A stretch of DNA of 35,498 bases from a virus. The notes beneath the pieces are model-generated. The model saw only the letters and a list, made by a program, of their open reading frames with translations, ran no database searches and was not told where the DNA came from. Below are positions 7,980-28,844 of this stretch, in pieces. Position 1 is the first letter of the stretch. Every line of letters starts with the position of its first letter. The translations under genes were made by a program, and so were the position numbers. Location of the stretch: the IMG/VR virus record IMGVR_UViG_3300037070_005820, positions 1 through 35,498 of that record; one strand, written 5' to 3'.

Positions 7980-7990
7980 CGTACATTAGG
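7980..7990 (+). promoter_or_regulatory. CGTACATTAGG promoter element (copy 1)
   Basis: The element overlaps the stop codon end of the 7506-7979 gene and lies 5 bases before an ATG at 7996 (8 bases after the TACATT hexamer). Seven other copies of CGTAnATTAGG (one with AGT) lie in the window, nearly all in gaps before genes. TACATT fits the TAnnnT -10 box of high-GC bacteria. It would drive the lysis block. Confidence 0.65.
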
Positions 7991-7995
7991 TCCCA

Positions 7996-8037
7996 ATGAG
8001 AACTAGTAGGCGCTCGCGTGAACCGCGAGGAGGCTGA
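7996..8037 (+). CDS. Possible leaderless 13-aa leader peptide
   Basis: ATG 7996 stands 8 bases after the TACATT hexamer, so a transcript could begin at or near this codon. The frame reads MRTSRRSREPRGG and stops at 8035-8037, 17 bases beyond the GTG start of the first membrane protein (8018), in a different frame. A leaderless leader peptide that overlaps a lysis-gene start could tune or delay that gene's translation. The peptide may equally be an accident. Confidence 0.35.
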   Translation: MRTSRRSREPRGG

Positions 8038-8224
8038 GCAGTGGTGGGCGTTGATTGCTCGCGTCATGGCGTTCTTCCTGGGCTCGGGGATTCTCATATG
8101 GCAAACGGTGATCGAGGAAGCCGATCGGCTCTACCTGATAGTCGCAGCAGTGGGGCTGTGCGGCCCAGTCGTGTCTCAGTCGGTGGCGACGGTATTCACG
8201 AGCATCAGGGGGAGCAAGGAATGA
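8018..8224 (+). CDS. Two-helix membrane protein, holin candidate (68 aa)
   Basis: The GTG at 8018 starts a 68-residue protein with two apolar segments, about residues 9-30 (WWALIARVMAFFLGSGILIW) and 38-60 (LYLIVAAVGLCGPVVSQSVA), joined by an acidic loop (EEADR) and ending in a short basic tail (SIRGSKE). Size, two helices, charged C-terminus and a location about 1.1 kb before an endolysin all fit a small holin. No sequence family was recognised. The stop overlaps the next start by ATGA. The ribosome-binding site is weak, so translation may depend on the leader frame before it. Confidence 0.6.
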   Translation: MNREEAEQWWALIARVMAFFLGSGILIWQTVIEEADRLYLIVAAVGLCGPVVSQSVATVFTSIRGSKE

Positions 8225-8433
8225 CCGGCCGAGGGCAGTCGGGTGAGCCGGGACGGGGTGAGCCCGGTCGCGGCGGAAGGGGTGGTGTTGGTGGACCCGG
8301 AGCAGCAGGGAAGATGCTCGCTAGCAAGATGGCGAGGCCAAAGTTGGCGCCGGTCGAGAGAGTGATCCTGTTGGTCGGGGCCGTTAGCGCGACCACGTTG
8401 CTGGTAATCCAGGCACTCGACGGGAACCTGTGA
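8221..8433 (+). CDS. Gly-rich one-helix membrane protein (70 aa)
   Basis: ATG 8221 overlaps the previous stop (ATGA) and has AAGGA upstream. The first 30 residues are Gly/Arg/Pro-rich with two GEPGRG-like repeats. They are followed by a short basic linker and one apolar helix at about residues 47-66 (VILLVGAVSATTLLVIQAL) near the C-terminus. It could be a second holin, antiholin or other lysis accessory, inferred only from its position between two membrane-protein genes before the amidase. Confidence 0.6.
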   Translation: MTGRGQSGEPGRGEPGRGGRGGVGGPGAAGKMLASKMARPKLAPVERVILLVGAVSATTLLVIQALDGNL

Positions 8434-8936
8434 GTAGGAGGCCCTCACCAGAGGGTGTGCTGGAGGAACTTCGGGACGCGATTCGTCCAGAGGTAGATGC
8501 CTGCCTTGAGGAACGGATCCGTAAGTTCCGCATTCAAACGTGGGTTCTCTACGGGCTCGCATTCGCCACGCTTGCTGCCCTCGCTGCCGTCGGCGGGTTG
8601 GTGGTGAACAAGATCCAAGATACGGCCGCGACGAGTCGTGAGGTTGCCGCGAAGAGTAGAAGCGTGGCTACGGAAAGCCGGAGGGTGGCACGTGCAAATA
8701 CCGCCCTTGGAAAGGCGAACCGCAGAACAATTAGGCAGCTGTGCGAGGTTGCCTTGAGGCAGCGCAGAACACTGGTGCTACAACGAACGAACGTCAGGGC
8801 CTACCTCAAGTCGCCAGCCGGGAGTACACACGTACCCTTGAATGACTACATCAGGAAGTTCAGCGTCCCGCAGCTGATGGAGCGCCTGAGAAGGGAAAGA
8901 GTGCCCAGGTCTTGCCGGGCGCTCTCCGCTAAGTAA
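8430..8936 (+). CDS. Membrane-anchored coiled-coil protein (168 aa)
   Basis: GTG 8430 overlaps the previous stop (GTGA). Residues 8-35 are a charged amphipathic helix, and residues 37-62 form one membrane helix (WVLYGLAFATLAALAAVGGLV). Residues 65-110 are a coiled coil built of Ala, Ser, Arg and Glu (TSREVAAKSRSVATESRRVA). The C-terminal 50 residues are basic. It resembles the one-helix, coiled-coil proteins that often lie beside phage holins and may be a spanin-like or lysis-accessory protein. Function is inferred from position and shape only. Confidence 0.6.
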   Translation: MSRRPSPEGVLEELRDAIRPEVDACLEERIRKFRIQTWVLYGLAFATLAALAAVGGLVVNKIQDTAATSREVAAKSRSVATESRRVARANTALGKANRRTIRQLCEVALRQRRTLVLQRTNVRAYLKSPAGSTHVPLNDYIRKFSVPQLMERLRRERVPRSCRALSAK

Positions 8937-8946
8937 GACCGATCGC

Positions 8947-8975
8947 TTGAAGACATCCGATACCTGCTGTATGTT
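8947..8975 (+). promoter_or_regulatory. Sigma70-like promoter candidate
   Basis: TTGAAG (8947-8952) and TATGTT (8970-8975) are separated by exactly 17 bases, in the 58-base gap before the 8995 gene. Each hexamer has four of six consensus positions. This is the best canonical promoter seen in the window and is unlike the CGTAnATTAGG elements. It may serve the 8995 gene and the endolysin. Confidence 0.45.
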
Positions 8976-8994
8976 GCGGGCAGGAGGTTCGGGA

Positions 8995-9276
8995 ATGGAA
9001 GCGCGCTACCCCACCGATCGAGAGCTCGTGGCGGCGCTACGCAGTATCGCGGAGGCGCTCGACGAGCCCATTGCCTATGTGCATGAGGGGCTTTTCCACT
9101 GGCCGTTCGGCAACGGCTGGTCGCTGGCGGTTTCCCCGGACAGTGCGTGCAGGATTCGTCTCGACGCTTGCTTCGGGACCGCTGCTCGCGCTACGCTCTG
9201 GAGTGAGGCAAGCGACAGGGTTCGGCTGGCTGACCTGGCGATCGCCCTAAGGCATGAAGTGCACGCCCTGGCGTAG
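8995..9276 (+). CDS. Hypothetical protein between holin-like genes and endolysin (93 aa)
   Basis: The ATG at 8995 is chosen over the TTG at 8947 because AGGAGG lies 8-13 bases before it and the TTG is part of a likely promoter. The protein reads as a helix (RELVAALRSIAEALD), then strands (AYVHEGLFHWPFGNGWSLAV), a Cys-containing segment (CRIRLDACFG), then a helix (LADLAIALRHEVHAL). There is no membrane helix or enzyme motif. It is placed within the lysis block but could be unrelated to lysis. Confidence 0.65.
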   Translation: MEARYPTDRELVAALRSIAEALDEPIAYVHEGLFHWPFGNGWSLAVSPDSACRIRLDACFGTAARATLWSEASDRVRLADLAIALRHEVHALA

Positions 9277-9314
9277 GGCGCCGGGCACGGATAAAGGATG
9301 AGCGGAGGGGTGTT

Positions 9315-10391
9315 ATGAGCGGTAGGACGAAGGCGGCGTTGGTCGCCCTCCTTGTCATCGTTTTCGGCGCGCTAGGGGTGAACATCGTCGTCGACGAGAA
9401 CGAGAGTCCCCCGCCGACGACAACCACCATCACCGTAGACAAGTCCGCGAAGCCGGGCATGCAGGAACAGGAACTCACCGTCCCGAAGACGGCAGAGGCG
9501 ATTGCCGGGAAGGCTCCCGAGCTTCAAGAGGACCTCAAGGACGAGACGCCCGAAGGCGTACCGAACGAGGTCATCGAGGGCGCGCGTGAGAAGGCGGACG
9601 AACTAGCCGCCAGCGATCAACTTCCGATTGTCACCCCCGACGCGGCGCCCGTACAACGTGGCTGCGAGTCCCACTTCGTACGGAACTACTCGTCGCGTCG
9701 GGGGGTGGCGCCGCGCTGGATCGTGATCCACGAGACGGTGAGCCCCAATCTGCCGGGTGTCAGGGATCTACTCGGTCTCACCGCACGCGCCAACGATCCG
9801 CGCTCGATGGTCAGCTGGACCTACAACATCGACCGTGATGGAAACTGCTTCTACGTCGTCAGGGAGTCCGACAAGTCGTGGACACAGGCGGTGGCCAACC
9901 CGTTCAGCATTGGTATCGAAGTGGTGAACACCACCCGAGAGCAGCCGTTCATGAAGCCGGTCGGTTATCGCAAGCTGGGGCTCGTGATCAGCGACGCTGC
10001 TAAGCGCTGGAACATTCCCCTGGTGCTCGGCTCGGCGAAGGGCTGCGCACCGGGACAGGCGGGCATCATCAGTCACGCGATGCTGGGCTCCTGTGGTGGC
10101 GGGCACGTGGACATCAACGCGCACGACTGCTCGGCGTCCTACGACGAGTGCCAGAAGGCGCGACTCGCGCTGCACCCAGGACTGCGAACGATCCTTGGCT
10201 ATGCGCGCCGCGCGCGAGAGAGTCAGAGACCTAAGTTGACCAAACAGGCCAAGTGGTCGCTACGACACGCCGCGCTCCACAAGCAGTACAAGGTCCAGTG
10301 CCGTACGAAGCGGCAGCGATCGGGGACAGCTTGCAAGCAGCTGAGGTCGCGTAACAGGGCCTATCACCGCCTCCTACACCGGGGTTCGTGA
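9315..10391 (+). CDS. Endolysin: N-acetylmuramoyl-L-alanine amidase with N-terminal membrane anchor (358 aa)
   Basis: Residues 133-290 form an amidase_2/PGRP-type domain that cleaves the bond between muramic acid and the stem peptide. The first zinc ligand is H139 in WIVIHETVS. The second is H254 in ISHAMLG, and D266 (GHVDI) 12 residues later is a likely third. SWTYNIDRDGNCFYVV and SIGIEVVNT are the usual core strands. Residues 7-25 are an apolar helix (signal-anchor or releasable signal), which would route the enzyme through the membrane without a classic holin. Residues 30-115 are a Thr/Pro then acidic linker. Residues 300-358 are strongly basic with two Cys, perhaps a wall-binding tail. 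ATG 9315 has GGAGGGG upstream. Confidence 0.9.
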   Translation: MSGRTKAALVALLVIVFGALGVNIVVDENESPPPTTTTITVDKSAKPGMQEQELTVPKTAEAIAGKAPELQEDLKDETPEGVPNEVIEGAREKADELAASDQLPIVTPDAAPVQRGCESHFVRNYSSRRGVAPRWIVIHETVSPNLPGVRDLLGLTARANDPRSMVSWTYNIDRDGNCFYVVRESDKSWTQAVANPFSIGIEVVNTTREQPFMKPVGYRKLGLVISDAAKRWNIPLVLGSAKGCAPGQAGIISHAMLGSCGGGHVDINAHDCSASYDECQKARLALHPGLRTILGYARRARESQRPKLTKQAKWSLRHAALHKQYKVQCRTKRQRSGTACKQLRSRNRAYHRLLHRGS

Positions 10392-12181: not shown

Positions 12182-12345
12182 TCACATGCAACTGCGGCAA
12201 GGCGCAGGTTGACATCCAGGGAGCCCGTGCGGTCGTTCAGGCGACCGACACGATCGCCATCCTCACCCTGGTCAATGACGGCTGCGTCAAGTTCGAGCAC
12301 TTGGAGTGCCAGACGTGTCGGACCGTGAGACTGCCCGAGAACTAG
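12163..12345 (+). CDS. Small zinc-ribbon protein (60 aa)
   Basis: The frame carries CNCG near the start and CQTC near the end, spaced by about 35 residues with strand-like sequence (ARAVVQATDTIAILTLV), a classic small zinc ribbon. GTG 12163 is chosen because it is the last start before the first Cys; GTG 12139 would add eight residues. It overlaps the previous gene by 19 bases and the terminase gene by 40 bases, so its span is boxed in between the two packaging genes. It is probably a packaging or DNA-binding accessory, by position only. Confidence 0.5.
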   Translation: MDGEGLVTCNCGKAQVDIQGARAVVQATDTIAILTLVNDGCVKFEHLECQTCRTVRLPEN

Positions 12346-14069
12346 GAGTGATCGACGGGATTAAGTTCCCGATCGAGCGCAACGGCTTCCTCATATACGA
12401 GGAGGACCTGATGATGTTCGCCATGCTCACGGACCCGGTCTACCTGCCGGAACTCACCTGGAAGGACCCCACCAATAGGCAGTACGGCGGCTGCTACCGG
12501 GTGCGCGACTACCAGTATCAGATCAACCGCTGCGAGGAGACCAACGCGATCTTCGCCTGTGCCCGATCGATCGGCAAGACGGAGTCTGAGAAGGTTCACT
12601 CCCAGAAGCACGCGATCGAGTCCGAGGGCGAAAACATGCTGATCACGGCGCCCGAGCTCATCCACCTGTTGCCGTTGACCGACGCGATTGAGAACAACCT
12701 GTCGGCGACACGTCTCACGCGTGAACTTCTCGACGATCGCCAGAGCGGCAAGACCGGGTTCACCCACAGGCCCTTCGGCGCCGACTTCAAGGATGGGACG
12801 AAGATCGTCGGCCGGATCCCGAAGATCACCGGCACCGGCGTCAAGGGCCAGCACCAGCCGTTTCTGATCGTCGAGGAGGGGCAGGACTACCCCGACAAGG
12901 GTTGGACCGAGGTCGAGGAGACCGTCAACCACGACGCGATCGACCAGGACGGCAGACCGCGCTACCGCTTCTGGATCTTCGGCGTGCACTCGGGCAACCG
13001 GAACTCTGGCTTCGCTGAACGTGCGCGCAGTAAGGAGTGGGCGCTGATCAAGGTGACACGCCTGATGCGGCCCGACTGGGGCAAGGAGGCCAAGGAGCGT
13101 GCCAGAGCCGCCTACGGCGGGACGAGCTCACCGGACTATCGGCGCAACATCCTCGGCGAGCCCGGCGATGCCGCCAGCGCCTACTTCGTGACGGCGCGGC
13201 TGATGGCCTGCGTCGACCAGCAGGTTGAACGCGGCGAGGTCAAGGGATCCGACTACAACAACCGCGAGTACGTTCACCAGCTGTTCCGCGCCGAGGAACT
13301 CGACACCGCCGACATCAAGATCGCGGACGCGCTCGACCTGCCGTCTGGCTACTCCTCCGTCTACGGCGGCATGGACGTGGGTCTCAACCGATCCCCTTCG
13401 GTGATCTCACTGTTCACTGAAGCAATGGTCGGCAAGGAACTTCGTCTCAAGCTGTTCCGGCGCTACACGCTGGAGCGCTTCCGGTCGAAGCAGCTGCGCC
13501 AAGCGCTCTACGCGATCGGCTGGCACTTCGGCGGGAGCCTGATGGGGCTCGGCATCGACTCCACCGGCCTGGGTCTCCCGTTGATGCAGGAACTCGAAGA
13601 CGACGAGTTCGTGCCGCCCAACATGATGGCGGTCACTCGCGGCTACTTCTTCAACAGCAAGGTCCCGGTGAACGTCGCCGAGGAACACGTCTTCAAGGAC
13701 CAGTTGACAGGCGTCGTCAAGGATCAGTACGGCAACGCGGTCAAGGAAGAGACGTTGCCGGACGGCAGCAAGCGCTTCGTCACCTACGCACCGTTCATCA
13801 TCGCCTCGACGCGTTACCTGGCCGAGTGGGTCGACTCCGGCAAGATGCTGTTGCCGTTCGACACCGAGATCACCACAGATATGATGGGCGAGACCAAGCA
13901 GCGCGTCGAAGGATTGCGTCAGGCGGCCGAGCGAGGGGTCACTCGCAAGCCCGATATGTTCCACATCCTCGACAGCTTCCGCGCGATGGCGATGGCCTAT
14001 CACGCCGCCGACATCGAGGAGCAACTGGCGATCCCCGAGGGTGAACCCGTCTTCGACTACGTCATATGA
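12306..14069 (+). CDS. terL: Large terminase subunit, ATPase and nuclease (587 aa)
   Basis: This is the motor that pumps DNA into the procapsid and cuts it. The Walker A-like loop is ARSIGKT at residues 86-92, with Arg and no leading Gly, as in many phage terminases. Walker B is FLIVEE at 186-191, with E190/E191 as the catalytic carboxylate. The RNase H-like nuclease half has the first acidic residue D357 (YGGMDVGL), a second D418 (LGIDSTG), and a C-terminal D550/D556 pair (PDMFHILDSF). Length is typical. GTG 12306 is the longest start; GTG 12315 is also possible. It overlaps the next gene by ATGA. Confidence 0.93.
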   Translation: MPDVSDRETARELGVIDGIKFPIERNGFLIYEEDLMMFAMLTDPVYLPELTWKDPTNRQYGGCYRVRDYQYQINRCEETNAIFACARSIGKTESEKVHSQKHAIESEGENMLITAPELIHLLPLTDAIENNLSATRLTRELLDDRQSGKTGFTHRPFGADFKDGTKIVGRIPKITGTGVKGQHQPFLIVEEGQDYPDKGWTEVEETVNHDAIDQDGRPRYRFWIFGVHSGNRNSGFAERARSKEWALIKVTRLMRPDWGKEAKERARAAYGGTSSPDYRRNILGEPGDAASAYFVTARLMACVDQQVERGEVKGSDYNNREYVHQLFRAEELDTADIKIADALDLPSGYSSVYGGMDVGLNRSPSVISLFTEAMVGKELRLKLFRRYTLERFRSKQLRQALYAIGWHFGGSLMGLGIDSTGLGLPLMQELEDDEFVPPNMMAVTRGYFFNSKVPVNVAEEHVFKDQLTGVVKDQYGNAVKEETLPDGSKRFVTYAPFIIASTRYLAEWVDSGKMLLPFDTEITTDMMGETKQRVEGLRQAAERGVTRKPDMFHILDSFRAMAMAYHAADIEEQLAIPEGEPVFDYVI

Positions 14070-14491: not shown

Positions 14492-14509
14492 TTCAACGAA
14501 GGAGGAAGC

Positions 14510-14881: not shown

Positions 14882-14892
14882 CCACGGGCGTG

Positions 14893-14898: not shown

Positions 14899-14936
14899 GC
14901 GCCGTGTGGATGTTCAACAACGAAAGGCAGGACTCA

Positions 14937-15104: not shown

Positions 15105-15120
15105 TACCTTTCCCACGTGC

Positions 15121-15164: not shown

Positions 15165-15180
15165 TGAACACCGCTCGTGC

Positions 15181-15588
15181 TTAGAAGGGTATGTCGTCAT
15201 CGGACGGAACAACGCCATGAGGCGTCTGTGCGACGACGGCCTGGCTATCGCCGCTGGACGAGTCGGGCAGGAACTGCACGTCGTTGGCGATGATCGCCAC
15301 GCCTTGACGCTTGTTGCCCTCCTTGTCGGTCCACTCGCTCCAGTCGAGGCGGCCGGTGATGGCCACCGGCGAGCCCTTCTGCATGTGCTCGGCCGTTGCC
15401 TCACCCTGCCTACCGAACACCGCCACGTCGAAGTAGTTGACCTTGTCCTCCCACTCCCCCGCCCTCTTGACGCGGCCGTTAACGGCGATCCGCAGCGAGC
15501 ACACGTGCCCGCCCCCGTTGGTATCCCTCAGCGATGGATCACGCGTAAGGTTCCCGGTGATCGTCACAGCGTTGATGTTCTGCGACAT
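15181..15588 (-). CDS. ssb: Single-stranded DNA-binding protein (135 aa)
   Basis: The protein coats single-stranded DNA during replication and recombination and recruits partners through its tail. Residues 1-108 form the OB fold: NAVTITGNLTRDPSLR, then SLRIAVNGR, then VNYFDVAVFGRQGEATAEHM, then SPVAITGRLDWSEWTDKEG, typical of bacterial-type SSB. The C-terminus ends in the acidic PSDDDIPF tail that binds SSB-interacting proteins. The linker is short, as in phage SSBs. It is the only clear minus-strand gene in the window. AAGGGG lies before its ATG, and a TAAGAT -10-like hexamer lies on the minus strand at 15624-15619. It sits, unusually, between packaging and portal genes. Confidence 0.95.
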   Translation of the reverse strand: MSQNINAVTITGNLTRDPSLRDTNGGGHVCSLRIAVNGRVKRAGEWEDKVNYFDVAVFGRQGEATAEHMQKGSPVAITGRLDWSEWTDKEGNKRQGVAIIANDVQFLPDSSSGDSQAVVAQTPHGVVPSDDDIPF

Positions 15589-15666: not shown

Positions 15667-15677
15667 CGTAAATTAGG
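15667..15677 (+). promoter_or_regulatory. CGTAAATTAGG promoter element (copy 2), portal gene
   Basis: The TAAATT hexamer (15669-15674) ends 7 bases before the portal GTG at 15682. That places a normal transcription start on or next to the start codon. No AGGAGG-type ribosome-binding site lies before the GTG, which supports a leaderless transcript. Confidence 0.75.
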
Positions 15678-15681: not shown

Positions 15682-17832
15682 GTGGCGTTCGTCGAGCGAG
15701 AGGAAACCGGCCTGCTGGTGCCGGACAGCATGGCCTTCTACTCGCCGAACGAGCCGAGCGTCCTGATCGACAACCGCACGGATCTACCGGACAGCGAGGT
15801 CCAGTACGCGATCGCGGACTACTTCACCGAGAACGTCGCGTGGAGCCAGGACGTGAACTTCCAGACCTACGGGCAGCAGGGCTCGCTGTTGGCCCGGACG
15901 AAGTTCACGATGCCGACCAACGTCTTCGAGGAGATCAAGCTGGCGCGACAGGTCGCCGACGAGGACGACGACATCCGGGCGGTCATCGGCGCGATGGTGT
16001 CGCTGGCGTTCCGCGAGGGCTACGACAACCAGCACGAGTCCGAAGACGTGCGCCAGACCTTCAACCGGGCCGGTGCCTGGGCCGGTCTCGAACAGGTTTT
16101 CAAGCGCATCTACCGTGAGTATCTGATCGCCGGGCAGGTGACCCTGGTGAGCCTCTTCGTGCGCAAGACCTTCGACTTCACCCACTCGGAGGTCTCGCGC
16201 ACGGTGCACCGCAGCATCGCCGCGCCGCGCTACGGGATCCTGCCTGCCGAGAACATTCGCGTGATTGGCGACGATATGTTCGACAACGCGCCGCTGGCCT
16301 ACAACCCGACCCAGGAGAAGATGCGGGTCTGGCTGGAGACCTTCTTCGCCGAGCGAACGTCGGTGGCTACCAAGCGCCAGATGGCGAGGGAGAGGCCGAT
16401 CTGGGCCGCGCTCTTCATTGGCGAGACCTACGTCGAGAACGACGTGGACTTGTTCGGCACCGGCATGAAGGTCTACGTGCTGAACCCGCGCATGGTGAAG
16501 CGCCTCAAGATGCCCTGCGACGGTCCGTACCCGCGCCCGCCGCTGACGGCCGACTTCGGACTACTCGAAGCGAAGCGCCTGTTGAACCTGATGGACTACT
16601 CACTGCTTCAGGGTGGCTCGAACTACATCGTCGTCGTCAAGAAAGGCACCGACCAGCTTCCCGCCAAGCCCGGCGAGGTTGAACACCTGCGCAACCAGGT
16701 GAAGATGATCACACGCTCGGGCGCGATGGTGGGCGACCACCGGCTCACCTTCGAGATTGTCACACCGGACCTGTCGGAGCTCTTGAACGCGGAGAAGCGC
16801 AAGCTGCTGGGGCGCAAGCTGGTCCGTGTGTTGATGCGCGTGCCCGAGGGCGAGGAGGCCCCGAAAACGGAGGGCGAGAAGGCGGCGGTCGAGATCGCCA
16901 CCGCCGTAATCACCAGCGATCGCGCAGACCTACGGAGCCTGGTGATGGCGGGTCCGTACGAGGAGACGATGACGCGCAACCGGGGCACCTTCGGGCGCTT
17001 CACCGACCCGCCCTCGATCTGGTTCCCGCGCATCGTGCTCCAGGGGCTCCAGGTGTTCACCGAACTGATGCTGAAGCTGCGCGACCGTGGCGACATCCCG
17101 CGCCGATACGGAGTCGAGTACGCGGGCTTCGACTACGACATCGCGGTGAACGATCGCAAGCGCGAGGTCGAGCGCGGCGACGACGAGATCATGATCCCCG
17201 GCGACGTACCCTTCGACTCGCCGAACAAGGGGCCGCAGGACAACAACCCCGGCCGCACGCCAGGTGGGACCGACCCGCAGCGACGGCGCCGGACGATCAC
17301 ACGCACGCGCGGGGAGACGGTCAAGGCACAGTGGGACGAGGACCTGCACGAAGTCGTGCGTGTCGGCGAGCTCACCGCGTCCATCCTTGAGCACTTCCCC
17401 GACTACACGATCGGGCGCATGACGGCCGCCGAGCGACGCGCGATCGAGGCCGAAGAGACCTTCCAGGAGGGGCCGGTGATCGTGGTCCCGGTGAACGCGG
17501 GGCACGAGACCGAGGACCACCGGATTGTCCGCCTTGATGACCGTCTTTCGATGCTGATCGGCCGTACCAAGACGACTGCGCTGGTGGCCAAGGCGCTTCT
17601 TTTCCGCGACGAGGACTACTCCGTGGTCGACGCCGAGAACCATGTTGTGGCCTGGGGGTTCGAGATCGACCTCCAAGAGGAGAAGCTGCGCGAGAAGCCG
17701 GAGCCCGAGCCGGAACCCGAACCCGAGGCGGTCGAAGCGGCTCAGCCGGTCATCAACGTCCACGTCAACATCGACAAGGACGGCGAAATCAAGATCGTGA
17801 ACGAACCACCCGAGCCGAAGCCGGAGGAGTAG
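15682..17832 (+). CDS. Portal protein with long C-terminal extension (716 aa)
   Basis: The portal forms the dodecameric ring at one capsid vertex through which DNA passes and to which the neck is attached. The assignment rests on position after the terminase, before the protease and capsid genes, on length, and on a portal-like layout. There is an alpha/beta wing and crown region up to about residue 290, helical stem segments (LLEAKRLLNLMDYSLLQGGS, then ELLNAEKRKLLGRKLVRVLM) and a later PPSIWFPRIVLQGLQVFTEL stretch. After about residue 515 a linker (GTDPQRRRRTITRTRG) leads to a separate acidic domain and a Pro/Glu repeat tail (KPEPEPEPEPEA), then a strand-rich end. The extension is unusual. 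The GTG start follows the promoter element directly. Confidence 0.8.
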   Translation: MAFVEREETGLLVPDSMAFYSPNEPSVLIDNRTDLPDSEVQYAIADYFTENVAWSQDVNFQTYGQQGSLLARTKFTMPTNVFEEIKLARQVADEDDDIRAVIGAMVSLAFREGYDNQHESEDVRQTFNRAGAWAGLEQVFKRIYREYLIAGQVTLVSLFVRKTFDFTHSEVSRTVHRSIAAPRYGILPAENIRVIGDDMFDNAPLAYNPTQEKMRVWLETFFAERTSVATKRQMARERPIWAALFIGETYVENDVDLFGTGMKVYVLNPRMVKRLKMPCDGPYPRPPLTADFGLLEAKRLLNLMDYSLLQGGSNYIVVVKKGTDQLPAKPGEVEHLRNQVKMITRSGAMVGDHRLTFEIVTPDLSELLNAEKRKLLGRKLVRVLMRVPEGEEAPKTEGEKAAVEIATAVITSDRADLRSLVMAGPYEETMTRNRGTFGRFTDPPSIWFPRIVLQGLQVFTELMLKLRDRGDIPRRYGVEYAGFDYDIAVNDRKREVERGDDEIMIPGDVPFDSPNKGPQDNNPGRTPGGTDPQRRRRTITRTRGETVKAQWDEDLHEVVRVGELTASILEHFPDYTIGRMTAAERRAIEAEETFQEGPVIVVPVNAGHETEDHRIVRLDDRLSMLIGRTKTTALVAKALLFRDEDYSVVDAENHVVAWGFEIDLQEEKLREKPEPEPEPEPEAVEAAQPVINVHVNIDKDGEIKIVNEPPEPKPEE

Positions 17833-17837: not shown

Positions 17838-18353
17838 TTGAGCCTACGAGTACGTGACTTGCTACGTCGCCGCGCGGCACTCGACGAGACCGTTGCGTTG
17901 TCCACCGAGGCCGGGAGTGGTGAGTCGGGCGCGATCGTGTTTGAGGTAGAGGACCTTCTCGTCCCGGCCGGAACCGATTGGTCAACAGACGGCCACGTTC
18001 TCGGGACGGTGGACGTTGAGGCCGGGCAGTTCGTGATCGGCACGTTCTATCTTGAGTTGGAGGCATTGCCGCAGAGCGACGACGAGATCGGTCTGGCCGA
18101 GTGGCCGACCCCCGGCGAGGCCTACAACTCAAACGACTTCGGCGTATCCCTTTCAGCGGCGAACGATTCGCCGGTTGTCCGGCTGTGGAAAACGGGGAAC
18201 CTGGTTCCGGCCACGAATATGTTGCTCGGCGGCGCGGATGACCAAAGTTCGCCGGGCAGCGCGGGCAGTGTCACGGTTGGCCTTTACAGCGCTGGCCCAA
18301 CGTCTGAGGACATCACCGTCGTGCGCGCCCGCGCGAGTTTTCTTCTGCTCTAA
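17838..18353 (+). CDS. Paralogue A: beta-rich virion protein starting SLRVRDLLRRR (171 aa)
   Basis: TTG 17838 is chosen because it has GGAGGAG about 8 bases upstream and because the paralogue at 21412 begins with the same residues. The first 12 residues (SLRVRDLLRRR) are a basic helix. The rest is beta-rich, with VALSTEAGSGESGAIVFEVE, then LVPAGTDW, then DITVVRARASFLL at the end. Alignment by eye with the 21412 protein runs the full length: VALGSDAGGSGVLTIEATDI, LIPADSDF and DDIHVARAVSMLS correspond. It is likely a head or surface protein. It lies between portal and protease genes and is followed by a promoter element. Confidence 0.6.
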   Translation: MSLRVRDLLRRRAALDETVALSTEAGSGESGAIVFEVEDLLVPAGTDWSTDGHVLGTVDVEAGQFVIGTFYLELEALPQSDDEIGLAEWPTPGEAYNSNDFGVSLSAANDSPVVRLWKTGNLVPATNMLLGGADDQSSPGSAGSVTVGLYSAGPTSEDITVVRARASFLLL

Positions 18354-18361: not shown

Positions 18362-18372
18362 CGTACATTAGG
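18362..18372 (+). promoter_or_regulatory. CGTACATTAGG promoter element (copy 3), protease-scaffold gene
   Basis: The TACATT hexamer ends 7 bases before the GTG at 18377, the identical spacing to the portal gene. It lies in a 23-base gap with no ribosome-binding site, so the start is again best explained as leaderless. Confidence 0.75.
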
Positions 18373-18376: not shown

Positions 18377-19711
18377 GTGAGCGGCCTTCAGGTTCACGAG
18401 CACGCCGACCGGCTCTTCCTGCTGGGACCTGTCCAGGTCATCAAGCCGACCGAGGAGGAGACCAAGGCCTTCGCCTTCGACACGGAGGTCACGGCCAGCG
18501 TCGAATTGCGCGGCTTCGCGGACGACCTCAAGAAGAAGGCGCCAAACGACCGGATCCTCTGGATGCGCGGCCAGTACGTCGAGGCCGACAACGCCAACAC
18601 CAACGGTGATCAGTGGACTGCGGGCGAGCTCGCGCTCAAGGCGCTCACGCCGAACTTCATGCCGGTCACGGTCATGCACGACTTCGCCGCCAACGTGGGA
18701 GTGATCGCTGACACGAAGCTGCTGACACCCGAGAAGGACAAGGTGCCGCGCGCGCGTATCGAGACCACACTCGCGATCTGGGCGCACCGCTTCCCCGAGG
18801 TTGCCGACGAGGCGCGCATCAACGCCGAGCAGGGCACGTTGATGCAGTCGATGGAGTGCCTGTCACCGCACTACGCGTGCTCGGTGTGCGGCATGAACTT
18901 CGTACGCATGCCGCACGGCTTCGAGCAACTGAATTGGTGTGCTCACCTGAAGGGCGAAGAAGGTGAGAAGGGCGCTCGTATATTAGGCGGCGTCACGTTC
19001 ACAGGGACCGGCCTGATCTTCGGGACACGGGGAGCCAGGGGTGCTTACAGCGAAGCGCACCTGGAGGTCGAGGACCTTGTGGCGTTCCACGAAGCTAGCC
19101 ACCAACACATCGGAGCCAGCACTTCCATGGGACAGATCCCGGTCGAGCAGTCGGACTACACCGCCCTTCAGGAGAAGGCCGCCAAGGTTGCGGGTCTCGA
19201 AGTCGAGGCCGCGAAGGTGCCCGACCTCGTGGCGCAGGTCACCGACCTGACCAAGAAGCTGGAGGACCAGGAAGCCGCCAAGGTCAAGGCCGAGGGCGAG
19301 CGCGACGAGCAGAAGAAGCGCGCCGACGAGGCCGAGGAGAAGGCGAACCAGACCACCCTGCGCGACGAGCGCCTGGGCAAGCTGGGCACGGCCTTCACGG
19401 CGAAGCTCGACAAGGCCGAGATCATCAAGACCAACCTTCAGAAGGACGCGGGCACCCTCGACGACACCGCGTGGGCAACACGCATCGAGGAGCTCGAAGC
19501 GGCCTTCGGCGTCAAGGCCGACGAGAAGAAGAAGGACGGCGACGAGAACGAGGAGGCCGACGAGCAGAAGGCGGGCCTCTTCAGCGAGGAGCAGGTCGCG
19601 TCCTCCGGTCTCGGTTCCGGCGAGGCGCCGAAGGACCAGGGCGTCACTCGTCGCTCGACGATCGGCGGCCTCGCACGCAGCTTCGGCAAGCAGCCGGTGA
19701 CCAACAAGTAG
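18377..19711 (+). CDS. Prohead protease with C-terminal scaffold domain (444 aa)
   Basis: The N-terminal 245 residues resemble phage capsid-maturation proteases: ILWMRGQYVEADNANTNGDQ, then MPVTVMHDFAANVGVIADT with the conserved His (H95) and GxI, then GTLMQSMECLSPHYACSVCG with the catalytic-type Ser region (SMEC) and a Cys cluster (CSVCG ... WCAHL). Residues 251-444 are a long acidic-basic coiled coil (KAKVAGLEVEAAKVPDLVAQ in outline, then EGERDEQKKRADEAEEKANQ), typical of scaffolding proteins, ending in a short basic domain (TRRSTIGGLARSFGKQP), as scaffolds use to bind capsid. The protease-scaffold fusion fits lambda C/Nu3-type organisation. GTG 18377 follows a promoter element directly. Confidence 0.75.
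   Translation: MSGLQVHEHADRLFLLGPVQVIKPTEEETKAFAFDTEVTASVELRGFADDLKKKAPNDRILWMRGQYVEADNANTNGDQWTAGELALKALTPNFMPVTVMHDFAANVGVIADTKLLTPEKDKVPRARIETTLAIWAHRFPEVADEARINAEQGTLMQSMECLSPHYACSVCGMNFVRMPHGFEQLNWCAHLKGEEGEKGARILGGVTFTGTGLIFGTRGARGAYSEAHLEVEDLVAFHEASHQHIGASTSMGQIPVEQSDYTALQEKAAKVAGLEVEAAKVPDLVAQVTDLTKKLEDQEAAKVKAEGERDEQKKRADEAEEKANQTTLRDERLGKLGTAFTAKLDKAEIIKTNLQKDAGTLDDTAWATRIEELEAAFGVKADEKKKDGDENEEADEQKAGLFSEEQVASSGLGSGEAPKDQGVTRRSTIGGLARSFGKQPVTNK
18977..18987 (+). promoter_or_regulatory. CGTATATTAGG element inside the protease-scaffold gene (copy 4)
   Basis: An exact match lies within coding sequence (encoding Arg-Ile-Leu-Gly). The flanking CGCTCG before it is identical to the copies at 23965 and 28834, giving a 14-base run in common. 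The next in-frame ATG is 19127, at the start of the coiled-coil scaffold half, so it may drive a separate scaffold mRNA. Confidence 0.5.
19127..19711 (+). CDS. Possible separate scaffold protein from internal start (194 aa)
   Basis: ATG 19127 is in frame with the 18377 gene (residue 251), and GGAG lies about 12 bases upstream. From here the sequence is purely scaffold-like: a coiled coil from about residue 12 to 90, a more flexible acidic stretch (KADEKKKDGDENEEADEQK) and a basic end. The junction between protease and coiled coil is exactly at this Met. The intragenic promoter element at 18977 lies about 140 bases before it. Lambda Nu3 is made in just this way from the C gene, but here it is inference. 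Confidence 0.45.
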   Translation: MGQIPVEQSDYTALQEKAAKVAGLEVEAAKVPDLVAQVTDLTKKLEDQEAAKVKAEGERDEQKKRADEAEEKANQTTLRDERLGKLGTAFTAKLDKAEIIKTNLQKDAGTLDDTAWATRIEELEAAFGVKADEKKKDGDENEEADEQKAGLFSEEQVASSGLGSGEAPKDQGVTRRSTIGGLARSFGKQPVTNK

Positions 19712-20365: not shown

Positions 20366-21310
20366 ATGAATCAGCAGATTCTCGCCACCCTCACGGCGGT
20401 CCACGCGGAGCAGGACGAGACCAAGCGCAAGGAGCTTCAGGCGCGCTCGAACGCCGCCCTGGCCGCGCACTTCTCGCATCCGGCGAACACTGCTGACCTG
20501 GAGGAGCTCGCGTTCGACCTCCTGAACATCACGTGGGCGGACGTGATGGAGCAGGACATCGTCAACCAGCTGATCGAGGTCAAGACGGTCGGCCTCGGCG
20601 ACCCCGACTACGTCAACGAGGACCTGCGCGGGATGCGGGCCTACTGGCAGGGCAAGGGCGGCGAGATCTTCTCGGACGTGCTGCGCTACGAGCGCGCCAC
20701 GATGCCGAAGGAGGAACTCGTCGCGGCGATCGACCTGCACGCTGACGAGATCAAGCTGGACTTCTGGGGCCAGTTCGACAAGCTGGTCACACAGGCGCGC
20801 GAGAAGCTGTCGCAGCTGCCCACCGAGCGCCTGATCGCGCTCGTGCGCACCGGCATCGCCGCCTCGCCGTACTTCGGCCAGTTCGCGGGCTCAACGCTCA
20901 CGGACGTGCAGGTCGACTCGATCCTCGACGCCGTCTCGGCGCGCTCCAAGGGACGTGTCTCGATCGTCGGTACCGAGGTCGCGCTGCGCAAGCTGGCGAT
21001 CGTCGGTCTCGACTACGGCCCCAACATCCAGGAGCAGATCTTCCGCACCGGCCAGATCGCCAACTACAAGGGCAAGCCGGTCGTGCAGGTGGAGCAGTTC
21101 GAGGACTTCGCGGGCAACCTGGTGCTGCCCGACGACGAACTCTGGCTGGTCGGCCAGAACTCCGGCCGCCTGACCTACTACGGCGCCGAGGCGAAGGTGC
21201 AGATCCTCAAGCTGCCCGCCTTCTACCAGCGCTGGGAGACGGCGCGCGACGCGGGCATGCTGCTCTACGGCGCCTCCAAGGGCCGCATCGGGCGGATCAA
21301 GCTGACCTAA
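20366..21310 (+). CDS. Major capsid protein (314 aa)
   Basis: This is the shell protein. The assignment rests on its place after protease, scaffold and decoration genes, its typical length, the strong terminator right behind it and its HK97-fold-like layout. There is an acidic helical N-arm (residues 1-60), a long helix region (EIKLDFWGQFDKLVTQAREK), a central DVQVDSILDAVSARSKGRVS segment, then a strand-rich domain with PVVQVEQFEDFAG, LPDDELWLVGQNSG, and a C-terminal GRLTYYGAEAKVQILKLPAF. Codon use is very strongly G/C-ending, consistent with high expression. ATG 20366 has ACAGGAG upstream, about 14 bases away. No delta-domain cleavage site was identified. Confidence 0.8.
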   Translation: MNQQILATLTAVHAEQDETKRKELQARSNAALAAHFSHPANTADLEELAFDLLNITWADVMEQDIVNQLIEVKTVGLGDPDYVNEDLRGMRAYWQGKGGEIFSDVLRYERATMPKEELVAAIDLHADEIKLDFWGQFDKLVTQAREKLSQLPTERLIALVRTGIAASPYFGQFAGSTLTDVQVDSILDAVSARSKGRVSIVGTEVALRKLAIVGLDYGPNIQEQIFRTGQIANYKGKPVVQVEQFEDFAGNLVLPDDELWLVGQNSGRLTYYGAEAKVQILKLPAFYQRWETARDAGMLLYGASKGRIGRIKLT

Positions 21311-21353: not shown

Positions 21354-21386
21354 AGGGGCGGCCTTCGGGCCGCTCCTCCTCTTTTT
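21354..21386 (+). terminator. Rho-independent terminator after the capsid gene
   Basis: AGGGGCGGCC (21354-21363) pairs with GGCCGCTCCT (21368-21377) around a TTCG tetraloop, followed by CCTC and five T (21382-21386). The UUCG loop and the GC stem make it very stable. It would end the capsid transcript just before promoter copy 5. Confidence 0.85.
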
Positions 21387-21394: not shown

Positions 21395-21405
21395 CGTAAA
21401 TTAGG
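21395..21405 (+). promoter_or_regulatory. CGTAAATTAGG promoter element (copy 5)
   Basis: It lies 8 bases after the T-run of the terminator. The TAAATT hexamer ends 9 bases before GTG 21412. The wider string TTAGGTTGGGCGTG is close to TTAGTTTGGGCATG at copy 7, so the bases after the hexamer are also conserved between these two. Confidence 0.7.
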
Positions 21406-21411: not shown

Positions 21412-21921
21412 GTGAGTCTCCGGGTCAAAGATCTACTGCGCCGTCGCCAGTACCTGGAGACCGAGGTTGCGCTCGGGTCGGACGCTGGCGGCTCTGGTGT
21501 CCTGACGATCGAGGCAACCGACATCCTGATCCCCGCCGACTCGGACTTCGAGACCTTCATCCACTCGCTCGGGACGATGGACTATGCCTACGCGAAGCTA
21601 CTTGCCTATGGCTTCTACCTTGATCTTGAGGAAGGATTGCCAGCCGAGATCTCGGCTGGCTACTACATGGAGGTCGGCCTGTCGTGGCTGGCAGATCCCG
21701 CTGATCCGAACTCGGGTGTCCAATTCCTAACGATCGGTAATGATGGGGGTCCCGTTCGGTCTGCCAAGAAGGCTGAGGTTCCTGGTACCACACAGGGTAA
21801 CGACCCGATTGGCTTCGAGGGGGAAGTGACTGTCGCGCTTGTGCTCTCGGGCTCGTCGGGCAACCCGCCAGACGACATCCACGTGGCGCGGGCGGTCTCG
21901 ATGCTGAGCCAGGGAACGTAG
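21412..21921 (+). CDS. Paralogue B: beta-rich virion protein starting SLRVKDLLRRR (169 aa)
   Basis: The start is set at GTG 21412 rather than TTG 21406 because the product then begins VSLRVKDLLRRR, matching MSLRVRDLLRRR of the 17838 protein. The first helix is basic and the rest beta-rich, with segments LTIEATDILIPADSDFETF, YGFYLDLEEGLPAEISAGYY, and a last strand DDIHVARAVSML that also aligns with paralogue A. Sequence identity is highest at the two ends and low in the middle, so the duplication is old. It has its own promoter element, downstream of the capsid terminator. Confidence 0.6.
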   Translation: MSLRVKDLLRRRQYLETEVALGSDAGGSGVLTIEATDILIPADSDFETFIHSLGTMDYAYAKLLAYGFYLDLEEGLPAEISAGYYMEVGLSWLADPADPNSGVQFLTIGNDGGPVRSAKKAEVPGTTQGNDPIGFEGEVTVALVLSGSSGNPPDDIHVARAVSMLSQGT

Positions 21922-21936
21922 GTGTCGGCACCGTTT

Positions 21937-21947
21937 CGTACATTAGG
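21937..21947 (+). promoter_or_regulatory. CGTACATTAGG promoter element (copy 6)
   Basis: It lies 16 bases after the 21921 stop. Here the next gene starts 38 bases later at 21985 and has a clear GGAGG ribosome-binding site, so this copy would make a leadered transcript. That separates the promoter from the start-codon context and shows the element is not just a translation signal. Confidence 0.7.
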
Positions 21948-21984
21948 TCCTGGCACGGCGAACCACTAACGGCCTGGAGGCAGC

Positions 21985-22461: not shown

Positions 22462-22464
22462 TCC

Positions 22465-23459: not shown

Positions 23460-23471
23460 GAAGGTAGTTCC

Positions 23472-23960: not shown

Positions 23961-23964
23961 CGCT

Positions 23965-23975
23965 CGTATATTAGT
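23965..23975 (+). promoter_or_regulatory. CGTATATTAGT promoter element (copy 7)
   Basis: One base differs from the consensus (final T for G). The TATATT hexamer ends 9 bases before ATG 23982. The preceding CGCTCG matches copies 4 and 8. Confidence 0.65.
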
Positions 23976-23981
23976 TTGGGC

Positions 23982-24695: not shown

Positions 24696-24708
24696 GCGGG
24701 GCTGACGG

Positions 24709-25923: not shown

Positions 25924-26798
25924 GCGTCAACGACATAGAGGCCAACACTTACGAGGCGGGCGCCACCGTCACGGTGAACGTGACCTTCGCGTCGGTGCCG
26001 CCCGACGTTTCCCTTCGGGTGCGTGACCCCGACGACAACCTCACCACCTACGACTCGGGCGACGTGACGCAGGACTCGCCGACCGAGTTCCACATGGACT
26101 TCGTGGCGCTGATCCCCGGTGAGTGGGACTACCTGTGGACCGATGGTGTCGGCAGCGCAGCCAGCGAGGGCGCGTTCCTGGTCAACCCGAACAGGACGCT
26201 GAGCGAGGCGGTCACGGACCTGCGCGACCTGCGCACGCTGATCCCGCGTGCGCGACGTGTCCTCGATGGGCCGCACGCCACGTCCGAGCACGCGGCGGCC
26301 TCGACGATGACAGACGAGGAGATCCTGGGAGTGATCGCCGACGCGGTCGCAAACGTGATCCTCTACACGGGCGCCGGGTTCGGCGTCAGCCTGGAAGTCG
26401 TCAGTCGCGACCCGTTCTACATGGCGCCGAACGCCTGGCGCACGAGCACCGCAATGACGACGCAGGAAGAGTCGGTCGTCATCTGCGAGGCGTTGATCGA
26501 CTACTACGTCGCCGGTCTCCAGCAGACCAAGGTGCGCGAGACGATCAAGGACGAGGGTCAGGAGTGGACCTATGAACTCTCGGCTAATCTGCTGCGCGAT
26601 CAACTGAAGCTGCTGATGGACGCGCGCGACCGCGCGCTGGCGGCGATCGCCGACCAGAGCAACCTCGACGAGTACGTCTCCTTCATCGCCGAGCGCGATG
26701 CTGTCGTGGCCACGCTGATCGAGCCCTGGGGTCCGGCCGGTGGTCTGCGCGGCGGCATGGAGCTCATCGACGTGAGGTCCGGGTGGCTTCCGGGCTAA
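25920..26798 (+). CDS. Head-tail connector/adaptor protein with N-terminal Ig-like domain (292 aa)
   Basis: Residues 1-92 read as an Ig-like beta sandwich: YEAGATVTVNVTFASVPPDV, LRVRDPDDNLTTYDSGDVTQ, then GEWDYLWTDGVGSAASEGAF. From residue 95 on the protein is helical: LSEAVTDLRDLRTLIPRARR, MTDEEILGVIADAVANVILY, then EESVVICEALIDYYVAGLQQ and a long helix to residue 265. The helical part fits the gp6/gp15-type adaptor that docks below the portal, and the position at the start of the neck genes agrees. ATG 25920 overlaps the previous stop (ATGA). The end overlaps the next gene by 16 bases. Confidence 0.6.
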   Translation: MSVNDIEANTYEAGATVTVNVTFASVPPDVSLRVRDPDDNLTTYDSGDVTQDSPTEFHMDFVALIPGEWDYLWTDGVGSAASEGAFLVNPNRTLSEAVTDLRDLRTLIPRARRVLDGPHATSEHAAASTMTDEEILGVIADAVANVILYTGAGFGVSLEVVSRDPFYMAPNAWRTSTAMTTQEESVVICEALIDYYVAGLQQTKVRETIKDEGQEWTYELSANLLRDQLKLLMDARDRALAAIADQSNLDEYVSFIAERDAVVATLIEPWGPAGGLRGGMELIDVRSGWLPG

Positions 26799-27085
26799 TA
26801 GACCTCGGGTCCGGCTGCACCGCGAGGTTCTACGGCGTCAACAAGGACGCCGTGAATCGCGACGGCGATCACATCTACCCGACCGATGTGCCGGATGTCG
26901 TTGGCATCATCTTCACGCACCCCATCGAAGGGGGCGACTGCGAGGGGGCGGTGCCGTTCTGGTCGCTCGACGGGCGCCCGACTTGGCACGTCAACATGCT
27001 TGACCCGCTTGACATAAGCCCATCGGTTCTGTGCACCGAGCACAACTGGCACGGACACATCCGGCAGGGCCGGTGGGTGCCCTGA
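26783..27085 (+). CDS. DUF6527-like protein (100 aa)
   Basis: GTG 26783 is chosen because its frame carries the family pattern: GIIFTHPIEGGDCEGAVPFW, then PTWHVNMLDPLDISPSVLCT and HNWHGHIRQGRWVP at the end. The 'SPSvxC ... HGxIxxGxW' ending is the hallmark I associate with DUF6527, small phage proteins of unknown function found among neck genes. Cys and His spacing (C50, C83, H86, H89, H91, roughly) would suit a metal site. It overlaps the 25920 gene by 16 bases. Confidence 0.65.
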   Translation: MASGLIDLGSGCTARFYGVNKDAVNRDGDHIYPTDVPDVVGIIFTHPIEGGDCEGAVPFWSLDGRPTWHVNMLDPLDISPSVLCTEHNWHGHIRQGRWVP

Positions 27086-27087
27086 GC

Positions 27088-27522
27088 GTGTCCCCCAACA
27101 TCGCGGGCTTCAAAGAGGCGCAGGAACGCCTACGCGAGAAGCTTGGCTTCGACATCCGTTTCTACACGCCGCTGCCGAAGACCTATCCGCCCGGCACCGA
27201 GCTCGACCCTGAAACGGGGAAGCCCTACAACGCCACGATCCGCCCGACCGCTTCCGGCTGGGCTAGCGCCAGCGTTCGCTGCTCGGTAGTGAGTAGACCG
27301 TTCGGGCTCTCGCGCACCGGCATCGAGGACCAGACGGAGTCGACGGCGCTCGGCATCATGAGCAACACGTCGGTGGGTCTGATCATGAGCGAGGAGGACT
27401 GGCCGACCGCCTCGGGCGCCACCGAGTTCGAGCACCTGGAGATCCGCTACGAGATCCGCGACGACACGCCCGATAGCCTTGGCGGGGCGACACGCCACAT
27501 CGTGGTAGGAGAGCAGAAGTAA
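27088..27522 (+). CDS. Probable head-closure/neck protein (144 aa)
   Basis: GTG 27088 starts two bases after the previous stop. Residues 1-20 are a helix (FKEAQERLREKLGF). Residues 22-60 are FYTPLPKTYPPGTELDPETG, a Pro-rich strand region. Residues 60-144 hold strands with SASVRCSVVSRPF and FEHLEIRYEIRDDTP. Position after the adaptor and before the tail terminator fits the head-closure (stopper) protein, but the family is not recognised by sequence. The end overlaps the next gene by TAATG. Confidence 0.5.
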   Translation: MSPNIAGFKEAQERLREKLGFDIRFYTPLPKTYPPGTELDPETGKPYNATIRPTASGWASASVRCSVVSRPFGLSRTGIEDQTESTALGIMSNTSVGLIMSEEDWPTASGATEFEHLEIRYEIRDDTPDSLGGATRHIVVGEQK

Positions 27523-28013
27523 TGGCCGACGTTTCGCGCTATACCAAGATCGAGCAGAGTCTCCAGACGTACGTCAAGGACCAGTTGTTCAACGTGCAGG
27601 GGATCGGGGCCGACCAGGTGGCAGTCGAAGATGCCTTCGAGTACGAGCGCTTCGAGGCCGGGCTCGACAAGACCTACGTGGCGGCTGGTTTCAACTTCGA
27701 CGACGGCGGCGAGCAGGCGGAATGCGGGTCATCGTTGCGTCGTTACGTCCACTCGATCGAGTTCTACGTCTTCGCCGACTCACCGCAAATGGGCGAGCAG
27801 GTCGCTGAGATCATCAAGCAGGCGGTGATCCGGGACGAAGTGATCGCACTGCACGACTACGGTGCTACCGGCGCTCCGATCATCGACTACCTGGAGATCC
27901 TGCCGCGCGGCGGGGCGCGGGCCGAGAGGATTCCAGTGCGCGATCCACGGCCGTGGGAGGAGAACATCTACCGCACCACGGTCAAGGTGGTTGACGAGTG
28001 GTATCCGGAGTAG
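27522..28013 (+). CDS. Probable tail terminator protein (163 aa)
   Basis: ATG 27522 overlaps the previous stop. The layout fits tail terminator/completion proteins: an N-terminal helix (YTKIEQSLQTYVKDQLFNVQ), then strands with YVHSIEFYVFADSPQMGEQV (helix follows), then HDYGATGAPIIDYLEILPRG and a last strand ENIYRTTVKVVDEWYPE. The alternation alpha-beta-beta-alpha-beta-beta is as in gpU/gp17-like proteins. The gene immediately after starts with no gap. Confidence 0.55.
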   Translation: MADVSRYTKIEQSLQTYVKDQLFNVQGIGADQVAVEDAFEYERFEAGLDKTYVAAGFNFDDGGEQAECGSSLRRYVHSIEFYVFADSPQMGEQVAEIIKQAVIRDEVIALHDYGATGAPIIDYLEILPRGGARAERIPVRDPRPWEENIYRTTVKVVDEWYPE

Positions 28014-28826
28014 ATGGCCAGCGCGCGTGAACTGCTGACGCGGCTGGAGCGTGACTTCCAGGTCTACGGAGACCGTGAGGAGTTCTGGGAGTTCTTCGCT
28101 TCGTCGCAGATGGCCGAAGGGATGCTTGGAATCTCGACTTTGGCCCGCGTTACACCCGACCCGCTGTTGCGTACCCAGCTACTAGAACTGATCAAGGAAC
28201 TCCGCGCGGAACTACGGGTGCTCGCTGTCAAAACAGCGAAGGATGCCGACAGGCTGATCGGCGAGGTCCTTGAGGCCGAGCAGGTGCGCCCGGACACCAA
28301 CAAGGATCACCACCTGAAGGACAACATCAAGTCGATGCCGTATCCCGGTGCGGCATCGCTGGGTGCTGTTGGGATTGCCTCGATAGAGGTCCTCGATCGC
28401 ACCGTGAATCCGCGTGGTGGCAGCGATCGGCCCTACTGGATAGTGATCGAGGAAGGGTCGGACATCCACCAGCCACAGCTGCGGGGACGGCGACTGTTCG
28501 GCAAGTTCTTCGGACCCTCCGGATCGTCGCGGCCGAGCCCGTCGAGGTTCCGTCAAGACTCGTCTTTCATCTTCTCCAAGGACGCCCAGTTTCCCGGACA
28601 GGGCAGCGGTGGTGGGTTCGGTGTCGTCGAGAATGCGATCAAAGGCCAACACTTCCTGGGCCGTGGTAGCGACGCCGCCTGGGGAGAGTACGTGGGAGCG
28701 ATCGCCGCAATCGACTCGCGCTACTCGGTTCGCCTGGCGGCACTAGTCAACGCAGCTGCGGGTCGTGTGACTCAGGCCGCTCGTGAAGCTGAATTGCTGG
28801 CAGCCGCACGCTTCCGGCGCTTCTAA
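28014..28826 (+). CDS. Neck/tail-completion protein, HK97 gp10-like (270 aa)
   Basis: The ATG follows the TAG with no gap. Residues 1-100 are helical (LLTRLERDFQVYGDREEFWE, then LLRTQLLELIKELRAELRVL). The middle shows VRPDTNKDHHLKDNIKSMPY and strands with RPYWIVIEEGSDIHQ. Near the C-terminus IKGQHFLGRGSDAAWGEYVG matches the 'rpaHfl..a' ending common in HK97-gp10-type proteins. A neck or tail-completion role is inferred from this and the position. It is followed after 7 bases by promoter copy 8. Confidence 0.5.
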   Translation: MASARELLTRLERDFQVYGDREEFWEFFASSQMAEGMLGISTLARVTPDPLLRTQLLELIKELRAELRVLAVKTAKDADRLIGEVLEAEQVRPDTNKDHHLKDNIKSMPYPGAASLGAVGIASIEVLDRTVNPRGGSDRPYWIVIEEGSDIHQPQLRGRRLFGKFFGPSGSSRPSPSRFRQDSSFIFSKDAQFPGQGSGGGFGVVENAIKGQHFLGRGSDAAWGEYVGAIAAIDSRYSVRLAALVNAAAGRVTQAAREAELLAAARFRRF

Positions 28827-28833
28827 GGGCGCT

Positions 28834-28844
28834 CGTATATTAGG
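28834..28844 (+). promoter_or_regulatory. CGTATATTAGG promoter element (copy 8)
   Basis: The flanking string GCGCTCG before the hexamer is identical to copy 4. The TATATT hexamer ends 34 bases before TTG 28876 and 46 bases before ATG 28888, so the tail transcript would carry a short leader. It may drive the tail gene block. Confidence 0.65.

Follow-up and report, generated by a model that had tools for sequence, protein, structure and literature searches.

The sigma factor gp36 of phage phiEco32 reads single-element middle and late promoters (tAATGTAtA), with transcription starting 6-8 bp downstream (PMC8948821). The late promoters of phage T4, which depend on gp55, have the sequence TATAAATA, and the promoter sequence varies with the diverged gp55 of phage Aeh1 (PMC1524935). 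Leaderless genes are common in mycobacteria, where leaderless initiation needs ATG or GTG and not TTG (PMC4633059). In the present analysis the element CGTAnATTAGG was followed up in the incomplete virus record IMGVR_UViG_3300037070_005820, whose whole stretch of 35,498 nt (65% GC) is called the window, and in the relatives of this virus. The consensus over 141 distinct copies, TCGTAnATTAGG, is best explained as the -10-only core of the late promoters of the lineage, read by a phage-encoded sigma factor and largely leaderless; the probability of this reading is estimated at about 0.8. It was reached by comparison of sequences, which supplied the element, its orientation, positions and spacing, a constraint at the nucleotide level and a sigma gene in the relatives. 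Among the papers listed by a literature search with the exact letters of the motif, none describes it as a phage element.

The element in the window and across the lineage

The preliminary description had listed eight copies in the window, and all eight coordinates were right. Seven copies are exact CGTAnATTAGG and the near-copy at 23965 is CGTATATTAGT; all are on the + strand. The count of the motif against shuffled controls, which the same description had proposed, was carried out on both strands with at most one mismatch and gave 9 matches against 0.37 +/- 0.53 in shuffles, none of 100 shuffles reaching 9. The weight-matrix scan of the window was all-or-none, the eight copies scoring 19.4-21.1 bits and all else 9.5 bits or less, except a one-mismatch match at 12389..12399 on the - strand (CGTATATGAGG, 15.6 bits). 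This match, antisense in the terminase gene, was dropped from the set as probably due to chance.

Relatives were gathered in two ways, some contigs being collected first by the motif and others by the capsid protein, independent of the motif. One exact copy with its flank, scanned against viral contigs, matched more than 100 of them, mostly by chance; a few high-GC contigs in this group carried 2-4 copies each, all on one strand, and these were syntenic relatives of the window (terminase 54-59% and capsid 58-65% identity). The independent collection with a capsid-protein profile yielded 34 viral contigs and, from an Actinomycetota metagenome bin, one more contig. The hosts of the lineage are probably Actinomycetota, this one bin being the host evidence. 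Nine relatives of about 80 kb, with major capsid proteins 53-66% identical, were available for comparison, and four of them have 127-bp terminal repeats (complete). Zero exact copies were found in the records of more distant terminase relatives. Those of about 35% identity (L003-L010, GX15bay), tried as a comparison group, were without the motif and became negative controls.

CGTAnATTA was taken as the fixed core when the 141 copies were collected. The base before the core is T in 67-77%, and the GG after it is conserved at mostly 70-78% for each G; the variants AAG, ACG, AGA and AGT occur while CGTAnATTA stays. The earlier view that both CG and AGG are fixed thus holds for CG, which lies in the fixed core of the lineage copies, and fails for the final GG, each G of which is at about 70-78% in most classes.

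The strand distribution was strongly one-sided. In the nine relatives all 60 occurrences of CGTAnATTA were on the late strand, the opposite strand having none. In a total of 506 kb of loci, to which the window contributes, the exact 11-mer was found 79 times on the late strand vs 0 on the other, and one-mismatch copies 42 times vs 4. Outside called genes lay 48 of the 60 copies, though called genes leave just 7-10% of the sequence uncovered; of the 12 copies inside genes, 9 were the conserved protease-gene copy described below. A motif equally frequent in coding and antisense positions had been named beforehand as evidence against a promoter, and the distribution in the nine relatives is the reverse of this. 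Each genome has 4-9 copies. Most are confined to a single arc of about 8-28 kb that carries the terminase, head and first tail genes (outliers are G015 47969 and G025 2193), and the element precedes late structural genes in their own orientation.

The lack of a shared -35 box, noticed earlier in the window, extends to the lineage, as in the non-coding classes (about 110 copies) the positions from -36 to -11 all stayed at about 0.3 bit or below. By eye none was seen within single genomes either, apart from an adjoining extension in G016. In this genome (L169-L170, 761-24689) 9/9 copies carry about RACGCGCGT directly before CGTAnATTA, and the extension is also seen in L145/L146/L168; it is possibly a longer promoter in that subgroup or the binding site of a second protein. 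The base at -1 was found to agree within genomes (0.87 vs 0.43 when permuted, with 0/2000 permutations reaching the value), being T in five of the nine genomes, G in three and mixed in one. Such concerted drift of flanking bases within a genome is expected of a genome-specific reader.

Start codons and the copy inside the protease gene

The position of start codons was analysed for the 111 copies outside the protease gene, counting each ATG/GTG that opens a frame of 60 codons or more. By offset after CGTAnATTA, one start was found at 0-3 nt, one at 4 nt, nineteen at 5 nt, twenty-four at 6 nt, nine at 7 nt and five at 8 nt, beyond which the counts drop to about 1-2 per offset (control about 1.3 per offset). 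Starts 5-8 nt past the core were thus present for 57/111 copies vs about 5 expected, with a sharp lower edge. The codons at the pile-up were ATG (36) and GTG (21), with TTG and CTG at 0, and 52 of the 57 frames had no upstream in-frame ATG/GTG. The pile-up persisted in contigs gathered by the capsid protein rather than by the motif. With TAnATT as the -10 hexamer the pile-up starts fall at +1. At the level of sequence this is the arrangement of actinobacterial leaderless genes, ATG or GTG at +1 behind a TAnnnT box, and the pattern supports leaderless late promoters. The leaderless promoter class put forward in the preliminary description is in this way supported by the 60/0 strand bias, the 48/60 copies outside genes and the ATG/GTG pile-up at +1. 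Among the other 54 copies, 29 had a start led by a Shine-Dalgarno (SD) sequence further downstream, mostly at 20-70 nt. The GG was equally conserved before leadered and leaderless starts, and therefore the AGG is not conserved for ribosome binding.

In the window, start codons 7-9 bases past the hexamer had been reported for five copies, of which four were retained. The element CGTAAATTAGG at 15667..15677 (+) heads the rightward head operon, with GTG 15682 lying 6 nt past CGTAnATTA in leaderless geometry; a copy ahead of the same gene is present in G010, G011, G013, G008, G015, G016, G017 and G024. The copy CGTACATTAGG at 18362..18372 (+), whose position is kept in relatives, has the same geometry with GTG 18377 at 6 nt. 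At 21395..21405 (+) the element CGTAAATTAGG precedes GTG 21412 by 8 nt, and this codon as start is backed by the paralogue 17838-18353. The variant CGTATATTAGT at 23965..23975 (+) has ATG 23982 at 8 nt, again in leaderless geometry. The fifth case, the putative late-promoter element CGTACATTAGG at 7980..7990 (+), did not hold, the ATG after it opening a 13-codon frame only; the likely gene begins at 8018 and is a short one (8018-8224) for a putative membrane protein that resembles a holin on inspection.

The remaining copies differ in their surroundings. The element CGTACATTAGG at 21937..21947 (+) is leadered, with ATG 21985 behind SD GGAGG, and is also found before this gene in G007, G009 and G012. 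The copy CGTATATTAGG at 28834..28844 (+) precedes the pre-tail operon, whose gene at about 28888-29166 has a leadered or ambiguous start, and occupies the same position in G007, G008, G010, G013 and G014. Seven copies had been assigned to gaps or gene ends, an assignment that does not apply to CGTATATTAGG at 18977..18987 (+), which is internal and in frame in the 444-aa protease/scaffold gene.

This internal element is read as CGT ATA TTA (Arg-Ile-Leu). Over 31 distinct sequences the codons were CGT in 31/31, ATA in 27/27 with Ile and TTA in 31/31, which in these genes account for 16%, 12% and 5% of the codons of their amino acids. Codon choice does vary at other conserved six- and four-fold residues of the same stretch. 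In four phages Ile is replaced by Arg (AGA) or Thr (ACA), the change falling at the free base n alone. The invariance of rare codons together with changes only at n shows that selection acts on the DNA (or RNA) letters. A nested in-frame scaffold reading frame, 19127..19711 (+), begins at ATG 19127 with an SD-like GGAG, and an in-frame ATG/GTG stands 139-187 nt past the internal element in 30/30 relatives, mostly with AGGAG/GAGG before it. The internal element is likely the nested scaffold gene's own promoter.

The candidate reader and competing explanations

The proteomes of the nine genomes of about 80 kb were clustered to find shared proteins. One protein of about 180-210 aa was shared by 9/9, its gene being syntenic and the last of the rightward operon, at the meeting point with the leftward operon. 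This protein matched Sigma70_r2 in 8/9 (best 1.3e-8) and Sigma70_r4_2 in 6/9 (both E below 0.1), as well as PHROG sigma factor families, and its PDB profile matches included sigma-H (5.5e-7) and the ECF factor CnrH (6.8e-5). The structural model has two confident helical domains, with sigma factors as top Foldseek matches. A sigma-70-family protein was present in 11/11 motif-bearing genomes of at least 60 kb (the nine and two more), and a lineage-derived profile found no match to it in five distant relatives that lack the motif. T7-like polymerase or other phage RNA polymerase genes were searched in G013 by Pfam and none was found. The nine sigmas together made too diverse a profile for scanning the collection, and a closer subset was used instead; it returned only genomes already known and added no sigma-bearing lineage outside. 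Nearly all phage sigmas end in ...AA (VPVAA, IPIAA, VPLAA, LALAA; genes in L171, L174, L181, L185, L190, L193, L198, L207, L208 and L209), like an ssrA/ClpXP degradation tail, which possibly provides a built-in turnover of the late sigma.

The proposed mechanism is as follows. The phage sigma (sigma2 + sigma4), made earlier, would join the core of the host RNA polymerase and direct it to the element, with TAnATT serving as -10 hexamer and transcription beginning 6-9 nt past it. At about half of the sites +1 would be the A or G of the ATG/GTG start, giving a leaderless mRNA; at the other sites a longer leader would be made, often with a ribosome-binding site. The site within the protease gene would yield a separate transcript for the nested scaffold gene. 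Binding of the sigma to the element, transcript starts at these positions, leaderless mRNAs and late timing are predictions of this scheme, as is a sigma gene in the window's own phage. The wider consequences, that the promoter core sets the start of both transcription and translation, that most head genes are expressed from leaderless mRNAs, that region 4 has lost -35 recognition and that the in-gene copy gives the scaffold its own transcript, are given slightly better than even odds.

Several observations weigh against this scheme. With a best E of 4.5e-3, the sigma model matches weakly in Foldseek, and its domain arrangement is uncertain. No conserved -35 box was seen, despite the region-4-like domain of the sigma. 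No sigma gene is present in the 35-kb window fragment, which lacks that region of the genome. The profile used on the five distant motif-less relatives came from this lineage, and a very divergent sigma could escape it. The G-type sigmas form one clade (98/98) and the capsid proteins do likewise; since the sigma and capsid trees agree, the match between sigma clade and base -1 may reflect shared ancestry.

The strongest alternative is that the late promoters are read by a housekeeping or alternative sigma of the host, as leaderless promoters of TAnnnT type, perhaps with a phage activator acting on the CG...AGG flanks. TAnATT does fit the TAnnnT -10 pattern of actinobacteria. Leaderless genes, as stated above, are common in mycobacteria (PMC4633059). 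Against these points, the element is all-or-none with no weaker versions, and its eight-base core is shared by about 141 copies across phages whose capsid proteins are 53-66% identical. The concerted drift of the flanks within genomes would not be caused by a highly conserved host sigma, and a sigma gene is found in every motif-bearing genome of at least 60 kb. Reading by the host sigma is considered unlikely. The preliminary description had left the reader as the host polymerase or a phage factor; the near-invariant sequence, the concerted drift and the presence of the sigma in 11/11 genomes favour a phage-encoded sigma over the host main sigma, and we infer that it is the former which reads the element.

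Considerably less probable is a role as stoperator-like sites, that is, asymmetric, transcription-oriented sites to which a phage repressor binds, like those of Cluster A mycobacteriophages, where sites for the immunity repressor are spread over the genome. Stoperators, too, are asymmetric, lie in one orientation and at gene boundaries and vary from genome to genome (PMC6550527), and at least one relative has an integrase and is probably temperate. This explanation does not predict that starts, ATG/GTG only, accumulate 5-8 nt past the site behind a sharp lower edge. Genomes carry few copies (4-9 each), for the most part in a single late arc, and the core of these copies resembles a -10 box. 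A translation or RNA signal like the Start-Associated Sequences (SAS) of Cluster K, which stand 3-7 bp ahead of starts (PMC3203893), with AGG as a short SD, would suit the roughly half of copies just upstream of a start codon and is very improbable, given that about half have no start codon there and many of them an SD-led start further on, that one class of copies is mid-gene, that GG is no better conserved before leaderless than before leadered starts, and that AGG varies as listed above while CGTAnATTA stays; the earlier statement that the element is no translation signal agrees with its occurrence before leadered genes with a ribosome-binding site.

Genomic context, significance and comparison with known systems

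In the window the terminase gene terL (12306-14069, +) is followed by a lone minus-strand gene for a single-strand-binding protein (15181-15588), between the terminase and the head genes, which stands back to back with the 15667 element. The 716-aa head protein downstream of terL (15682..17832, +) occupies the portal position by synteny and has 45% identity to relatives, with no Pfam or PHROG match above threshold. The 444-aa protease/scaffold-type gene (18377..19711, +) was assigned by its position upstream of the capsid gene and has 42-48% identity to relatives. The major capsid protein candidate (20366..21310, +), its role likewise by position, matches the unnamed family PHROG_4088 (1.3e-14) and was the seed for collecting the lineage. 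Two paralogous genes of about 170 aa (17838-18353 and 21412-21921) share 37% identity, each adjoining a late element, and the tape-measure gene runs from 32030 to the end (+). Between the major capsid gene and the 21395 element, close to the latter, lies a terminator-like hairpin with a T-run (21354..21377, +; 10 pairs, 8 of them G-C). It is the only one cited, because terminator-like sites in the window as a class were not above chance (7 vs 7.3). At 6880-6900 of the window TAGGGT stands 6 nt ahead of ATG 6895; it looks like a leaderless promoter of host type and lacks the CG...AGG flanks. G013 (L128-L132) carries a tyrosine integrase and a RuvB/clamp-loader-like ATPase, and the lineage probably includes temperate members in view of this integrase.

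With the proposed promoter an uncultivated phage lineage (about 40 contigs) would gain a readable late-gene switch, and a fast-evolving family of phage sigmas would be paired with its likely DNA target. As the targets shift with the genome, the co-evolution of sigma and promoter becomes directly testable. The results also suggest that leaderless translation can serve capsid genes, whose expression is among the strongest in a cell. The system may offer compact orthogonal promoters with cognate sigmas for actinobacteria, and motif and sigma together could be used to define the lineage in metagenomes.

Among described systems phiEco32 gp36 is the closest, with a phage sigma-70-family factor and single-element promoters. 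The present lineage differs from it in the sequence and (probably) the host phylum, in that about half of the sites abut a start codon, and in the one site located in a gene; moreover gp36 is without region 4, while here a region-4-like domain is present in the sigma though no -35 is seen. T4 gp55 is alike in its short -10-only late element and sigma-like phage reader, and unlike in being a small clamp-dependent sigma working with gp33/gp45, whereas the factor found here has sigma2 + sigma4 by profile. Of the features of the gp36 and gp55 kind, a sigma gene (11/11 genomes), a single element without -35 and a position upstream of late genes are found in the lineage; as for a sigma-dependent transcription start 6-9 nt downstream, the observation is the start-codon pile-up at that distance. 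The gp47 of Salmonella phage 7-11 is likewise a phage sigma with region 4 whose late promoters stand before late genes; its promoter is bipartite, GTAAtg-(16)-aCTA (PMC8948821), and no second box is seen here. Group 4 (ECF) sigmas consist of sigma2 + sigma4 only, as the sigma of the lineage does by profile and model, but their bipartite promoters have an AAC-type -35 box, of which no signal was obtained.

Mycobacterial leaderless genes share the start at +1 and the use of ATG/GTG only; theirs are promoters of the host sigma, while a dedicated phage element is proposed here. Cluster K SAS and Cluster A stoperators are also short, asymmetric, oriented repeats near start codons, and differ in sequence, position and spacing rules, stoperators being repressor sites. 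The SAS, GGGATAGGAGCCC with AGGAG, accompanies non-structural genes only, whereas the present element has a different sequence and copies before structural genes. Compared with phiEco32 and T4, three things would be new in this candidate system: a sigma4-like domain in a factor for whose promoters no -35 is visible, the leaderless geometry, and the putative in-gene promoter of the scaffold.

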